From Pseudomonadota bacterium (GTDB lineage Bacteria; Pseudomonadota; Gammaproteobacteria; Xanthomonadales; Xanthomonadaceae): a DNA stretch of 12,000 nucleotides. The stretch is from assembly GCA_019348095.1 (NCBI GenBank), contig JAHWKC010000046.1, positions 1-12,000 on the forward strand, given 5' to 3'. Below, one piece after another: positions 1 through 12,000 of this stretch; within the stretch, counting starts at the first letter, position 1, and every line of letters starts with the position of its first letter. The translations under genes were made by a program, and so were the position numbers. The notes under the pieces were generated by a model. It was given only the letters and a program-made list of their open reading frames with translations, was not told the DNA's origin and made no database searches.

Positions 1-249
1 CTCGTCCGATCTTGGGGCGATGCCCAGTGGTCCTACCTGTTCAAGGGCGACACCGTCTACGCGCCGACGCTGCCCGCCGACGGCCAGGTACCCGAGGCCG
101 CGCGCGCCGCGCGGGCACCCGAGGAGATCGGGACGGTGCAGGGCCCGGTGATCAAGCCGGCCGTGTGGACCTGGGAGATCCCGGTGTACTTCTGGACGGG
201 CGGCATCGCGGCGGGCGCGTCGTTCGCCGCGCTGGCCTGCGACCTGGCC
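1..249 (+). other. NrfD/PsrC-like N-terminal segment (foreign part of the chimeric ORF)
   Basis: Codons 1-83 contain the hallmark of NrfD-family quinone-interacting membrane subunits: a short soluble leader, then GPVIKPAVWTWEIPVYFW followed by a glycine/alanine-rich first transmembrane helix (TGGIAAGASFAALACDLA). In this family the helix is followed by more membrane helices; here the text changes to Clp straight after CDLA. That tetrapeptide is plausible in both families, as NrfD often reads CDLAG and Clp reads CELAEI, so the breakpoint cannot be placed more exactly than about 225-255. From memory the style is closest to NrfD proteins of actinobacterial type, but this is an impression and not a search result. 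Confidence 0.65.
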
Positions 250-612
250 GAGATCGGCCATGAACGCTTCTACGAGCTTCTGCTCTCGCGCCTGGCGGTG
301 GACGCACCGAAGCTGCTGTACGCGATCGGCGCGCAGATTTCGCGGCGGCTGCTCGACACCAGCCGCAAGGCGGGGCGCCTGGCGTTCCTCGACGTGACCG
401 ACCGCATCGTGCGCGCGCTGCACGACCTGGCCAAGGAGCCCGATTCGATGAGTCACCCTGATGGCACCCAGCTGCGCGTGTCGCGGCAGGAGCTGTCGCG
501 CCTGGTGGGTTGCTCGCGCGAGATGGCCGGTCGCGTGCTCAAGAAGCTGCAGGCCGACGGCAAGCTGCACGCGCGCGGCAAGACCGTGGTGCTGTACGGC
601 ACGCGCGGGTAA
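1..612 (+). CDS. Chimeric ORF: NrfD-like N-terminus joined to C-terminal half of Clp (CRP/FNR family), 5' partial
   Basis: The frame is open from the first base to TAA at 610-612. From about codon 84 onward it matches the C-terminal half of Clp, the CRP-like global regulator of Xanthomonadaceae: the long dimerisation helix, then LAFLDVTDRIVR, then the winged helix with SRQELSRLVGCSREMAGRVL and the closing HARGKTVVLYGTR. Clp is about 230 residues; only about 120 are present, and the N-terminal cyclic-nucleotide/c-di-GMP-binding beta-barrel is missing. It is replaced by residues that read as an NrfD/PsrC membrane-anchor N-terminus (GPVIKPAVWTWEIPVYFW, then one hydrophobic segment). A GTG at 136 could serve as an internal start, but no convincing Shine-Dalgarno precedes it. 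The Clp part is confident. The fusion as a real protein is doubtful, and an assembly join is more likely. If real, the product would be a membrane-tethered DNA-binding domain. Confidence 0.8.
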   Translation, partial: LVRSWGDAQWSYLFKGDTVYAPTLPADGQVPEAARAARAPEEIGTVQGPVIKPAVWTWEIPVYFWTGGIAAGASFAALACDLAEIGHERFYELLLSRLAVDAPKLLYAIGAQISRRLLDTSRKAGRLAFLDVTDRIVRALHDLAKEPDSMSHPDGTQLRVSRQELSRLVGCSREMAGRVLKKLQADGKLHARGKTVVLYGTRG

Positions 613-1801: not shown

Positions 1802-3508
1802 TCAGCCCTGCACTTCTGCCGGCTTGTCCGGTTCGAACGTGACCGGCACCCGCACCCGGCTGGCCACCGGCTTGCCATCCTCGATCTTCGGGTTGAACGA
1901 CCACTTCCACGCCGCCTCGACCGCGGCGGTATCGAACACCCCGGCCGGCGTGGCGCTCTCGACCTCCACTGCTGTGGGCTTGCCGTCGGCGCCGATGTCG
2001 ACCAGCAGCACCACCTTTCCGCCCACGCCCTGTTCAGCGGCTTCGGCCGGATAGCGCGGCGGGTGCAGAGCTCTGGCATCGCGGCTGGCAACTGGCGAGG
2101 CGGTGCCGGCGTCAAGCGGCGCGGGTGGTGCCGGCGGTGCAGGCGGTGCCGCCGATCCGGGAGCTGGAAGTGCCGCAGGCGGCGGAGGCGGCGCAGGCGG
2201 TGTGGGTGGCTCCGGGGGCGGCGGCGCAGGCGGTGGGTTCGATGTCAGCCTTAGTCCGAGCTCAAGTGCTTCCGAGCCCTCCGTCGGAGCTTTGCCAATC
2301 CTGACTCCGGAAGCCTCTCCATCCCGAATGATCAGACGCGGCGTTCCCACTACTGCGCCGTCCCGGGCAATGGAGGAGCGGAAATCGATCGCTCCATCGG
2401 GTCGCGGGGCCGCCGTGGCCGTCACTTCCCACAGCTGACCGTTTTCCCGCACGTTGAATGAAAACGGCTTGCCGGGAGGGTTGACCAGTGTGAAGTCATG
2501 CATTTCCCCACTGCCAATCTGCAGCGTGACATCGGCTCGGACCATTCCTGCGGTTGCGCCGTCAACAGCAATGAGCTCGCTGCGTTTGGGCTGCGCCGCC
2601 CAGGCCGAGACCCCGGCGGTCACGGTCAGCACGGTCACCACCAGGCTGCCGGTGATCCAGCGGGACAACGAGGGAGCAGGTTGCTTGAGCATGGCGATTC
2701 TCTCCTTGAGCGGGTGGGAGCGGCTGCCGTCGAAAGCCAGCCAGTGACATCCCAGCGGCAGCGGCTGCGCGGCGAGCTGGGTCCTGAACATCGCCTCGCC
2801 GTAGGCGCGGCGCGATTGCGGGTGGCGCGCGATCACGCGCTGGTCGCAGGCCAGTTCCTGGTCCTGGCGGAAAAGCCGGGCGGCCGCGTGCAACAGGGGG
2901 TTGAACCAGAACAGGCAGCGCAGCGCGGCTGCCAGTGCGTTGACCTGCAGGTCGCCGCGGCGGATGTGCAGGCGCTCGTGGGCCTGCATCAGCGCCTGCT
3001 GCTCGATGCTGTAGCGGGTGTCGAAATCGGCCGGCACCACGATCCGCGGATGCCACAGCCCCAGCGCCGCCGGCAAGCCGTCGACCCCGCGGGCCTGCTG
3101 CAGGCCATCGCTGCGCATGCGCAAGGGCCCCAGCGCGCGGCAGAAGCGGCGCTGCTGCCGGACCAGACGCCCCGCCATCGCCAACGCGCCGAGCGCCCAC
3201 GACACCGCAAGCCAGGCTTGCCAGTCGATCCCGCGCACCGCCCCGGCCGCGAGCACCTGCGGGACGGCGGCGGTGCCGACGGACACCATCGACACCGGCA
3301 CCGGCGCGACCGTCGTCGCCGGCACCAGCACCGCCAGCAACGCCGCCGGTACCAGCAGCCACAGGCAATACGCGAGCGTCGCCCCGAAACGGCGGCGCAA
3401 CGGCCGGCGCAGTGCCAGCACCAGCAGCACCGCCGCACTGGAGGCCAGCGTGGTCTCGACCAGCAGTGCGATGGTGTCGGCGACTAGGGTCTCAGCGATG
3501 CTCATCAT
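1802..3508 (-). CDS. M56 (BlaR1-like) membrane metallopeptidase fused to a TonB C-terminal domain
   Basis: A 568-residue protein. N-terminal hydrophobic helices lie at about residues 12-33, 43-64 and 96-113. The M56 zinc motif HERLH is at 177-181, with the downstream ligand region ELACD at 218-222. Another helix is at about 286-303. A beta-rich, unassigned extracytoplasmic region (305-420) is followed by a proline-rich linker (425-464) and a TonB-type C-terminal domain (about 482-560: HPPRYPAEA, GKVVLLVDIGADGKP, WSFNP). BlaR1/MecR1 relatives sense a signal outside and cleave the partner BlaI repressor; here the usual penicillin-binding sensor is absent and the TonB domain takes its place. Two ATGs (3508, 3505) follow GGAGGAG at good distances; I use the first. 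The start overlaps the end of blaI by 17 bases, so the pair is translationally coupled. Function beyond proteolysis is inferred. Confidence 0.88.
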   Translation of the reverse strand: MMSIAETLVADTIALLVETTLASSAAVLLVLALRRPLRRRFGATLAYCLWLLVPAALLAVLVPATTVAPVPVSMVSVGTAAVPQVLAAGAVRGIDWQAWLAVSWALGALAMAGRLVRQQRRFCRALGPLRMRSDGLQQARGVDGLPAALGLWHPRIVVPADFDTRYSIEQQALMQAHERLHIRRGDLQVNALAAALRCLFWFNPLLHAAARLFRQDQELACDQRVIARHPQSRRAYGEAMFRTQLAAQPLPLGCHWLAFDGSRSHPLKERIAMLKQPAPSLSRWITGSLVVTVLTVTAGVSAWAAQPKRSELIAVDGATAGMVRADVTLQIGSGEMHDFTLVNPPGKPFSFNVRENGQLWEVTATAAPRPDGAIDFRSSIARDGAVVGTPRLIIRDGEASGVRIGKAPTEGSEALELGLRLTSNPPPAPPPPEPPTPPAPPPPPAALPAPGSAAPPAPPAPPAPLDAGTASPVASRDARALHPPRYPAEAAEQGVGGKVVLLVDIGADGKPTAVEVESATPAGVFDTAAVEAAWKWSFNPKIEDGKPVASRVRVPVTFEPDKPAEVQG

Positions 3509-3863
3509 CGATCTCCTCCAGCAATTGCCGCAGTTCGGCGATGTCCTCGCGGCTGAGCCTGCGGTGCTCGCTGAAGTGCGCCACCAGCGGCGCGATGCGG
3601 CCGTCGAACAGCCGCTCCAGCAGCCCTTGGCTTTCGCCGAGCAGCCAGTCCTTGCGCTGCAGCTGCGGCGCATAGAGATAGCGGCGGCCGTGCCGCTCGG
3701 CGCTCACCGCGCCCTTGTTCAGCAGGCGGTTGAGCAAGGTCTTGATGGTCGGCTCCTGCCACTGCTGGCTGTCGGCGAGCGCCGCGACCACCTGATCGGC
3801 GGTCAGCGGATGGCGGCGCCACAGCACGTCCATCACGATTGATTCGGCTTCGCTGATCTGCAT
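3492..3863 (-). CDS. BlaI/MecI/CopY family transcriptional repressor
   Basis: A 123-residue winged-helix repressor of normal family length. The N-terminal domain covers residues 1-70, with ISEAESIVMDVLW, the recognition-helix region EPTIKTLLNRLLNKG (37-51) and the wing HGRRYLYAP (58-66). The C-terminal dimerisation helices (about 73-120) include LVAHFSEHRRLSREDI; H96-F97 sits where BlaI/MecI carry the Asn-Phe bond cut during induction. The gene lies upstream of and overlaps the M56 gene, the classic repressor-protease pairing. A palindromic operator candidate covers the promoter directly before the ATG, which predicts autorepression of the whole operon. The true target is unknown: no beta-lactamase or penicillin-binding protein gene is in the window, so calling it blaI would overstate the evidence. 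Confidence 0.9.
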   Translation of the reverse strand: MQISEAESIVMDVLWRRHPLTADQVVAALADSQQWQEPTIKTLLNRLLNKGAVSAERHGRRYLYAPQLQRKDWLLGESQGLLERLFDGRIAPLVAHFSEHRRLSREDIAELRQLLEEIDDEHR

Positions 3864-9323: not shown

Positions 9324-9358
9324 GATCACCGCTCACCTCGCTGGGATGCGCGGTGATC
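9324..9358 (-). terminator. Weak hairpin at the end of batD
   Basis: GATCACCGC (9324-9332) and GCGGTGATC (9350-9358) form a perfect 9-bp stem with a 17-base loop. The right arm runs into the first two bases of the batD stop codon complement, so the hairpin would form at the very 3' end of the batB-batD message. No T-run follows, so it may protect or end the transcript, but this is uncertain. Confidence 0.35.
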
Positions 9359-11048
9359 AGGTCCCGGGATAGAGCGGCGGCAGCGGCGAGGGTTCCGGCG
9401 CAGAGACCTCTCTCCAGCGTGGCCCACGCGCGAAGGCCGCGCGCAGTTGCGCACGCGCGGCCACGCCGTCGCCATCGCCCCAGCGCGCGCGCTGCATCGA
9501 GGCGAGCGCCTCGCGCTGGGCCGGATCGTCGAACCGGGCGATCAGCGCGTCGACGTCGCGCGCAGGCGGCTGCGCCATCGCGCAGAGGATGTCGGCGACC
9601 TCGCCGAAGTCGCCGGTATCCAGCGCGCGTTTGAGCGCGGCCGAGCCGGGCAGCGGTGCATGCCGGGCGTCGGCGGAACGCCCGCCGGAGGCGGCTGACG
9701 CGGCGCCGCCGTGCCGTCGGCGTTGCAGCGCCCACAACAGCGTGACCAGCCACAACGCCGCAAAGACCAGTGCAGCGGCCGCCCAGGCCCGATGCACCCC
9801 GCCGTCCGCTGTCGGCGAGGTGATCGACCGATCGCCCGCGAGCGGCGCGGGTTCGACCGCCCGCGTCGGCGCCGGCGCGCCGGCACCATCGGCCGCGGCG
9901 ACGTCCCACGACAGCGGCGGCAGCGTCGCGGTGCGTGCATTGCCCGCACGCACGTCCCACCACGGCAGACGCATCCCGCCCAGCTCCACCTCGCCGGCGT
10001 GGCCCGGCACCAGCGAGAACCGGCGCGTCAGCTTCACCCGCGGGCGGCCGTCGACAAAACTCTCGTCGGCCTGCACCGGTTCGGCGAACACCTGCACGCC
10101 ATCGATCGGCGGCAACTGCAGCTCGGGCATCTGCGCGGCGGTGGCGCCATCGGCGGTGGCCTCGATGGTCAGCGTGGCGGCGGCGCCGACGCGCAGGTCC
10201 TGCGGGGTGGACTGGTATCTCAATTGCAGGTCATGCAGCGGCAGCCACGGCTGCGCTGCGCCCGCCGGGACCGGACGCACCTGCAGGAAACGCGGCGGCG
10301 CCTGCGCCTGCAAGACATCGCCGCGGCCGCCGAAGAAGTCATCGAACATGCCCACCGCACCGCGGCCCTCGAAACTCGCGCCGGGGATGGTCAGGGTGCC
10401 GCTGCGTTCGGGGATCAGCTGGTAGCGCCGCTCCACGACGTTGTAGCGCCGCCCGTCGATCTGGCGGGTGTACTGCGCATCGGTGCCGACCCGCTGCAGC
10501 GAGGCGCCCTCGGGTGCGGGCTGGTCGATCTGGCCGGAGATCAGCGGCACTGCCGAGTACAGCCGCACCACCCAGCCAACCGCCTGCTGCACGTAGGGGT
10601 CGGCGTCGTCGGCTTCGCTCTCGATGAACACCGCATCGCCTGCCCGCGCCGGGGTGCGCGTGGACGCGGGGGCCACCACCAGCGATAGCGGCTGGGTGCG
10701 CTCGCCGCCGACATCGAGCGCGGGAATGGTCAGCACGCCCTGGCGCAGCGGCCGCAACGCCACCGCGTGCAGCGTGCGATCGACCCGGCGGCCGTTAATC
10801 AGCTCCAGCTGACGCCGGCTGGTGTTGCCGGTGACGCGGAAGTCGCCTCGCAAGGGCGTGTAGTCCGGCGCACCGGAGAGCGCCGAGGTGGTTTCGATGT
10901 TGAGCGTGACCGTCTCGCCCAGCGCGATCCGGTCGCGGTCCAGCCAGGCGCGCGCCTGCGCCGATGCCTCCGCGCCGAAGCCCGACAACAGCAGCAGGAT
11001 GCAGCACTGCAGTGCACGGATGACTGACGACGGCGACATGGCGTTCAT
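9357..11048 (-). CDS. batD: BatD family protein (Bacteroides aerotolerance operon type)
   Basis: A 563-residue exported membrane protein. Residues 10-30 form a signal peptide ending in AEASA, just before QARAWLDRDRIALGETVTL, the usual start of the BatD extracytoplasmic beta-domains. A second beta-domain begins near 280 (RVGAAATLTIEATADG). One transmembrane helix at about 421-441 is followed by Arg residues and a helical cytoplasmic tail. In bat operons (moxR, DUF58, batA, batB, batD) these proteins form a membrane assembly linked to the MoxR ATPase and envelope stress; the exact role is unsettled. The start ATG 11048 overlaps the stop of the preceding gene as ATGA, indicating coupling; ATG 11039 has better spacing from GGGAGA and is an alternative. 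No truncation is seen. Confidence 0.88.
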   Translation of the reverse strand: MNAMSPSSVIRALQCCILLLLSGFGAEASAQARAWLDRDRIALGETVTLNIETTSALSGAPDYTPLRGDFRVTGNTSRRQLELINGRRVDRTLHAVALRPLRQGVLTIPALDVGGERTQPLSLVVAPASTRTPARAGDAVFIESEADDADPYVQQAVGWVVRLYSAVPLISGQIDQPAPEGASLQRVGTDAQYTRQIDGRRYNVVERRYQLIPERSGTLTIPGASFEGRGAVGMFDDFFGGRGDVLQAQAPPRFLQVRPVPAGAAQPWLPLHDLQLRYQSTPQDLRVGAAATLTIEATADGATAAQMPELQLPPIDGVQVFAEPVQADESFVDGRPRVKLTRRFSLVPGHAGEVELGGMRLPWWDVRAGNARTATLPPLSWDVAAADGAGAPAPTRAVEPAPLAGDRSITSPTADGGVHRAWAAAALVFAALWLVTLLWALQRRRHGGAASAASGGRSADARHAPLPGSAALKRALDTGDFGEVADILCAMAQPPARDVDALIARFDDPAQREALASMQRARWGDGDGVAARAQLRAAFARGPRWREVSAPEPSPLPPLYPGT

Positions 11049-12000
11049 TCTCCCGGGTCACCGCGCAACTGGCGGCGCTCGTATTCGATGCGGAACTTCT
11101 CGCGCAGCAGGCCGCCCGGGTCATCGGGCACGCGCTGCAGCCAGGCCTCGTTGGCGAGCCGGCGCTCGCGCTCGGCCGCGGTTTCCGGTGCGCGTGGCGG
11201 CGGCCCCGGTTGTGCCTGCTCGGCCTGCGCTTGCTCCTGCGCCTGCTGCAGCGCGCGCTGCATGGCTTCGCGTTGTGCGGCGTCGGCGGCTTGCTGGGCT
11301 TCTGCGTCGGCGGGGTCGGCCTCGGCGGCCGGATCCGCCTCATCCGGTGGCTGCCCGGTCTGCTGCGGCGGCGCACCCTGCTGCGGCGGTGAGGGCTGGC
11401 CGCTCTCGCTCTCGCCCTCCCCCTCGCCCGGCTGCGGTTCGCCATCCTGGCCCGGCTCCGGTTGCGCGCCGGGGTCGGGCTGCTGGCCCTGCGGTGGCTG
11501 GCGCTTCATGGCGGCCTCGACCGCGCGCTTGTTGGCGAGCGCATCCGGCATGCCCGGCTGGCGCTCCAGCGCCTCCTCGTAGGCCTTGATTGCCTGCTGA
11601 TATTCACCGGCCTTGGCCAGCGCGTTGCCCAGGTTGTACTGGCCGTCCGCGCTGTCGAGCGCGAAGCCGAGGACGAGCAGGCCCCCTCGCTCGATGACGG
11701 CCCGCTTGGTGGCGTCGTCGGCGCCCTTGCCGCCGAGCTTGAAGTCGACGCCGCGTCCGCCCTTTGGCGTCGCGATGGTGATGCGCCCGGGAGCGCCGGC
11801 CTCCGCGATGACCTTCGCCTCGAGCTCGTCGTTGGTGGCGTTCAGCAGCGCGTGCTCGACGCCGTTCTCCGAGAGCAGCAGCGACAGCGCCATCGCGAAG
11901 GCGCCCTTGACCGGGGCCGGGATGCTGCGTGAGTTGAACGGCGGCGCGAGCAGCACGAAGCCGGTGGCGCGGGCCACGCCGAGCAGCAGAGCCGCCAGGG
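11045..12000 (-). CDS. BatB-like TPR protein C-terminus, 5' partial, with a chimeric N-terminal part
   Basis: The frame is open from the right edge to TGA at 11047-11045. From about 11660 downward it is the C-terminal part of a Xanthomonad vWA-TPR (BatB/BatC-type) protein: one TPR unit ADGQYNLGNALAKAGEYQQA continuing to ALERQPGMPDA, then AVEAAMKR, a long Pro/Gln/Glu-rich low-complexity linker, an Ala/Gln-rich coiled helix, and the conserved tail WLQRVPDDPGGLLREKF. It should sit in the membrane with BatA and BatD. The vWA domain and membrane helices expected before the TPR are missing. In their place, in frame, are a SecA-like segment and, before it, a FliR-like segment. The TPR half and the coupling to batD are trustworthy. 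The N-terminal third probably is not part of this gene. A GTG at 11977 gives the longest local start but lies in the FliR-like part. Confidence 0.75.
   Translation of the reverse strand, partial: LAALLLGVARATGFVLLAPPFNSRSIPAPVKGAFAMALSLLLSENGVEHALLNATNDELEAKVIAEAGAPGRITIATPKGGRGVDFKLGGKGADDATKRAVIERGGLLVLGFALDSADGQYNLGNALAKAGEYQQAIKAYEEALERQPGMPDALANKRAVEAAMKRQPPQGQQPDPGAQPEPGQDGEPQPGEGEGESESGQPSPPQQGAPPQQTGQPPDEADPAAEADPADAEAQQAADAAQREAMQRALQQAQEQAQAEQAQPGPPPRAPETAAERERRLANEAWLQRVPDDPGGLLREKFRIEYERRQLRGDPGE
11656..11887 (-). other. SecA-like helicase segment inside the chimeric ORF
   Basis: Read on the minus strand, this stretch of about 75 codons matches part of helicase domain 2 of SecA, the preprotein-translocase ATPase: LLSENGVEHALLNA corresponds to LL..RGI.H.VLNAK, then EAKVIAEAG corresponds to EAEI.AQAG, ITIATPKGGRGVDFKLGG to the motif VTIATNMAGRGTDIKLGG, and GGLLVLG to GGL.VIGTERH. 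The canonical Asn-Met-Ala and Thr are changed (PKG, V), so it is a diverged SecA. It changes to TPR text right after LGF, before the SecA motif that should follow. Confidence 0.6.
11872..12000 (-). other. FliR-like segment at the right edge of the window
   Basis: About 42 codons on the minus strand read as the N-terminal region of FliR, the flagellar export-gate membrane protein: a hydrophobic helix LAALLLGVARATGFVLLAP, then the signature APPFNSRSIPAPVKGAFAMAL. It stops at about SLLLS, where SecA-like text takes over. No other flagellar gene is in the window. From memory the style APPFNSRSIPAPVK is closest to actinobacterial FliR proteins; no search was made. Confidence 0.55.

Follow-up and report, generated by a model that had tools for sequence, protein, structure and literature searches.

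The window analysed here is the entire 12,000-base contig C410 of the host genome G000, which comprises 2.7 Mb in 480 contigs and is 72% complete. A minus-strand frame of 317 codons (11998-11045) occupies the right end of the contig; it is open up to the contig end and is cut at 11998. The features at the two ends are the following.

11870 to 11998, minus strand: FliR fragment of 43 codons (Bac_export_1 profile 2-42 of 230, E 8.7e-8, for the piece alone)
11660 to 11890, minus strand: SecA P-loop fragment (P-loop_SecA profile 48-116 of 205), overlapping both neighbours by a few codons
11045 to 11665, minus strand: C-terminal BatB sequence of the host itself, with TPR and a low-complexity tail
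9357 to 11048, minus strand: batD, which follows batB downstream (Pfam BatD, E 1.9e-19)
1 to 234, plus strand: foreign fragment, weakly NrfD-like, in frame with clp
235 to 612, plus strand: C-terminal part of a clp/crp regulator, native (CRP equivalog model, E 6.9e-53, from residue 78)

The first-pass annotation had described FliR, SecA and BatB TPR sequence within the one minus-strand frame, with the first two pieces incomplete and the vWA domain missing before the TPR. Pfam confirmed this arrangement. In the whole frame, Bac_export_1 (FliR) matched residues 2-47 at profile positions 2-43 of 230 (E 1.3e-7), P-loop_SecA matched residues 37-129 at positions 48-116 of 205 (E 6.4e-15), and TPR_1 matched residues 117-148 (E 5.4e-10). 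No vWA match was found in the frame. The FliR and SecA matches overlap by about 10 residues. Neither a complete Bac_export_1 domain nor a complete SecA motor, with the P-loop and the other helicase parts, is encoded; the SecA similarity is confined to part of one domain. The anomalous part in front of BatB amounts to the final ~335 bases of the contig. In the searched protein collection, the composite frame itself is present as P0001, listed with SecA, FliR and TPR domains.

The two joins had been placed at 11887-11872 and at about 11671-11655, and both positions held up: identity to the FliR protein P0121 ends at 11870, a few bases past the first interval, and BatB similarity begins inside the second, at 11665. 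The annotation had also proposed to split the protein at the joins and to search each part. After cutting, the first piece matched only FliR models in Pfam and NCBIfam, the second only SecA models, and the third TPR models along with some weakly matching further ones. Base composition gave no contrast, with a GC content of 0.73 and 0.72 in the foreign pieces and 0.74 in the BatB part.

The third part belongs to the host. Its identity to residues 344-546 of P0010, labelled at its source as a Lysobacter VWA protein, is 61%. With P0010 as the query, 24 of 30 genomes (G000 included) gave a match. The comparison of batB among relatives was another proposed check: in 11 of 17 other family genomes P0010 had one near-full-length match (residue 1 to 543-548), five gave matches in pieces and one (G008) gave none, and G000 holds residues 344-546 only. 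Many of the searched family genomes also had a second, vWA-like match beside the batB match. Like BatB, a vWA and TPR protein of the bat operon, the window has the last 200 residues, TPR and tail included, and batD downstream, the stop codon of the BatB part overlapping the batD start; it differs in having no vWA domain, as the contig departs from batB at ~11665. Next to batD, the organism most likely has an ordinary batB, the first part of which lies off the contig. Among the relatives of the BatB part, P0037 (PF01070/PF03060) and P0071 (PF07264) carry other, unrelated Pfam domains; they are perhaps further composites from metagenome contigs.

The FliR piece was identical in 43 of 43 residues to residues 10-52 of P0121, a complete FliR protein of 254 residues. 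Beyond residue 43 (base 11870) P0121 continues as FliR, whereas the window continues as SecA. Among the 120 listed of 193 matches, those named by organism (P0167, P0237 and P0239) were all from the actinobacterium Geodermatophilus. Against 30 genomes (G000 included), the three best matches outside G000 reached E values of 0.003-0.008 at 36-38% identity, and weaker, shorter matches reached up to 52% identity. Plasmid records gave no match. Because the piece is identical to P0121 over 43 residues, has Geodermatophilus as the organism of its named matches and finds only weak matches in relatives of the host, it is, judged by these similarities, foreign to the host and from a Geodermatophilus-like actinobacterium.

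The SecA piece matched in 29 of 30 genomes of the host's family (G000 included), with 38-57% identity outside G000, and in 129 of 143 genomes of the class (G000 included), where identity outside G000 did not exceed 56% and E was 1.7e-14 or weaker. SecA is conserved, so that a copy belonging to the host would be expected to show far higher identity to its relatives; since identity within the family is just 38-57%, the piece is most likely foreign as well. Its best NCBIfam model was SecA2_Mycobac. A scan of genome contigs returned two relatives with 48% and 51% identity, and viral contigs gave no match. Matches were present in 74 plasmid records, the 20 listed at 39-51% identity and two further ones in the 60-80% band; as DNA, the piece matched 17 plasmid records, each over less than 80% of its length. 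P0240 was the only match (51%) in the large protein collection, a search whose length limits, 0.55 to 1.75 times the 317 residues of the frame, excluded whole SecA proteins. A source was not found in the genome contigs, viral contigs, plasmid records, class or family, and the piece may stem from an unsampled or distant SecA. In an alignment with three solved SecA chains, the window fragment (11645-11881) reads GGRGVDF where the chains have AGRGTDI.

Searches of G000 itself found no other batB match, no second FliR (two weak matches elsewhere at a low threshold, E 0.02 and 0.8) and no other SecA P-loop above the cut-off (two weak matches below it), and in a genome that is 72% complete these absences say little.

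The left end of the contig is also composite. The plus-strand frame 1-612 carries a Clp/CRP regulator from residue 78 onward, and this part showed 66-93% identity in 11 family genomes. When the whole frame was compared with 20 genomes, this one included, 19 had a match; the best match started at residue 78-80 in 17 of the 18 other genomes and at residue 51 in one order-level genome. In a local BLAST, five of those loci aligned from residue 79-80 onward. Taken by themselves, the first 81 residues matched no NCBIfam family. In Pfam, the left-end piece matched NrfD alone at E 0.1-0.2, so that it appears weakly NrfD-like, and it had no match in plasmid records.

We also surveyed other contig ends of G000. 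Sixty contigs were fetched, 40 terminal frames were listed from contigs of at least 5 kb, and 30 of these, chosen by eye, were scanned. Four of the 30 further frames joined families that were unrelated as judged from their Pfam names, and eight had no Pfam match at E 0.01. The four ends are listed here.

C440, left end: DUF72 joined to DUF6691, without domain overlap at the join
C475, right end: phosphodiesterase piece joined to a PAS histidine kinase, without domain overlap at the join
C10, right end: short-chain dehydrogenase (to 236) joined to an MFS_3 piece (from 227), overlap of about 10 residues
C30, right end: ELM1 (to 387) joined to elongation factor G domain IV (EF-G IV, from 380), overlap of eight residues

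The composite frames lie at L062 1-933, L069 6069-8036, L076 6324-7346 and L078 5283-6824. We know of no link between the families joined at these ends, and the four frames are probably artefacts of the same kind as the one studied here. For the control genome G013, 20 of 22 listed frames were scanned; none of the 20 joined unrelated families, a propeller-plus-protein-kinase protein being counted as genuine, and three had no match. By itself, the difference (4/30 versus 0/20) did not reach significance (one-sided Fisher p = 0.12), and it comes from one control genome whose contigs were not length-matched. The excess nevertheless agrees with the remaining evidence for an artefact.

Taken by its sequence, the three-part frame is almost certainly an artificial join of one kind or another, chimeras made in the laboratory included, with an assembly chimera at a metagenome contig end as the likeliest kind. 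Chimeric contigs are a known kind of error in metagenome assembly. The anomaly sits at the very end of a complete contig, and the same contig has a second composite end at 1-234. The parts come from different organisms, clearly so for FliR and BatB and probably for SecA. The overlaps of domain matches at several joins (FliR/SecA, dehydrogenase/MFS_3, ELM1/EF-G) fit a short shared sequence bridging two genes. Chimeric metagenome contigs likewise have foreign scraps at their ends, in several cases with similarities that overlap where the parts meet, and we saw no difference between them and the window; the frame was kept, but only such joins are visible. Against an artefact speaks that every join found keeps the frame, though the method detects only in-frame joins, that two of the four further joins (C440 and C475) lack a domain overlap, and that the foreign pieces do not stand out in base composition. 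The interpretation of the first-pass annotation was partly supported: the anatomy, the families, the joins and the missing vWA domain stood, and it had left open the reading as an artefact.

We infer that the assembler left the true batB at ~11665 through a short shared stretch and entered the SecA gene of another organism. About 200 bases further on, a second shared stretch would have led into an actinobacterial fliR gene, within which the contig stops. At the opposite end, the assembler would likewise have left clp for an NrfD-like gene. In high-GC coding DNA with common codons, short shared words would mostly lie in the same codon phase, and this may account for the kept frame. No working fused protein would be expected from such a sequence.

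Within the artificial joins, a chimera formed by amplification or ligation during library making would yield the same kind of sequence; we regard this variant as unlikely, as the overlapping domain matches at several joins suit a join through shared words better. A real rearrangement that broke batB in the host strain, by recombination or transfer of foreign scraps, would account for foreign pieces beside native sequence. It is very improbable, since separate events would be needed at both ends of C410, each close to the point where the contig stops, and similar events at other contig ends too. That some real process in the organism or the sample attaches pieces of foreign coding sequence in frame to native genes has hardly any probability. 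A genuine gene fusion, by which the organism would make one FliR, SecA and BatB protein, is just as hard to credit: the frame does run unbroken through both joins, but it contains no more than the beginning of FliR, a truncated SecA P-loop and a BatB without vWA, no other protein among the 120 listed of 261 found has FliR or SecA domains beside TPR, and the differing origins of the parts, which the annotation had named as the test of a true fusion, argue against it.

With an assembly chimera as the preferred reading, the frame 11998-11045 is most likely not a new fusion protein. A contig end can lead a scan to such a "new fusion protein", and our results suggest that the contig ends of G000 are worth checking or trimming before genes are counted. 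Seven other genes of the window were scanned and were ordinary in Pfam. At 1802-3863, a penicillinase-repressor family regulator adjoins an M56 peptidase with a TonB C-terminal domain, which is an ordinary BlaI/BlaR1-like pair.
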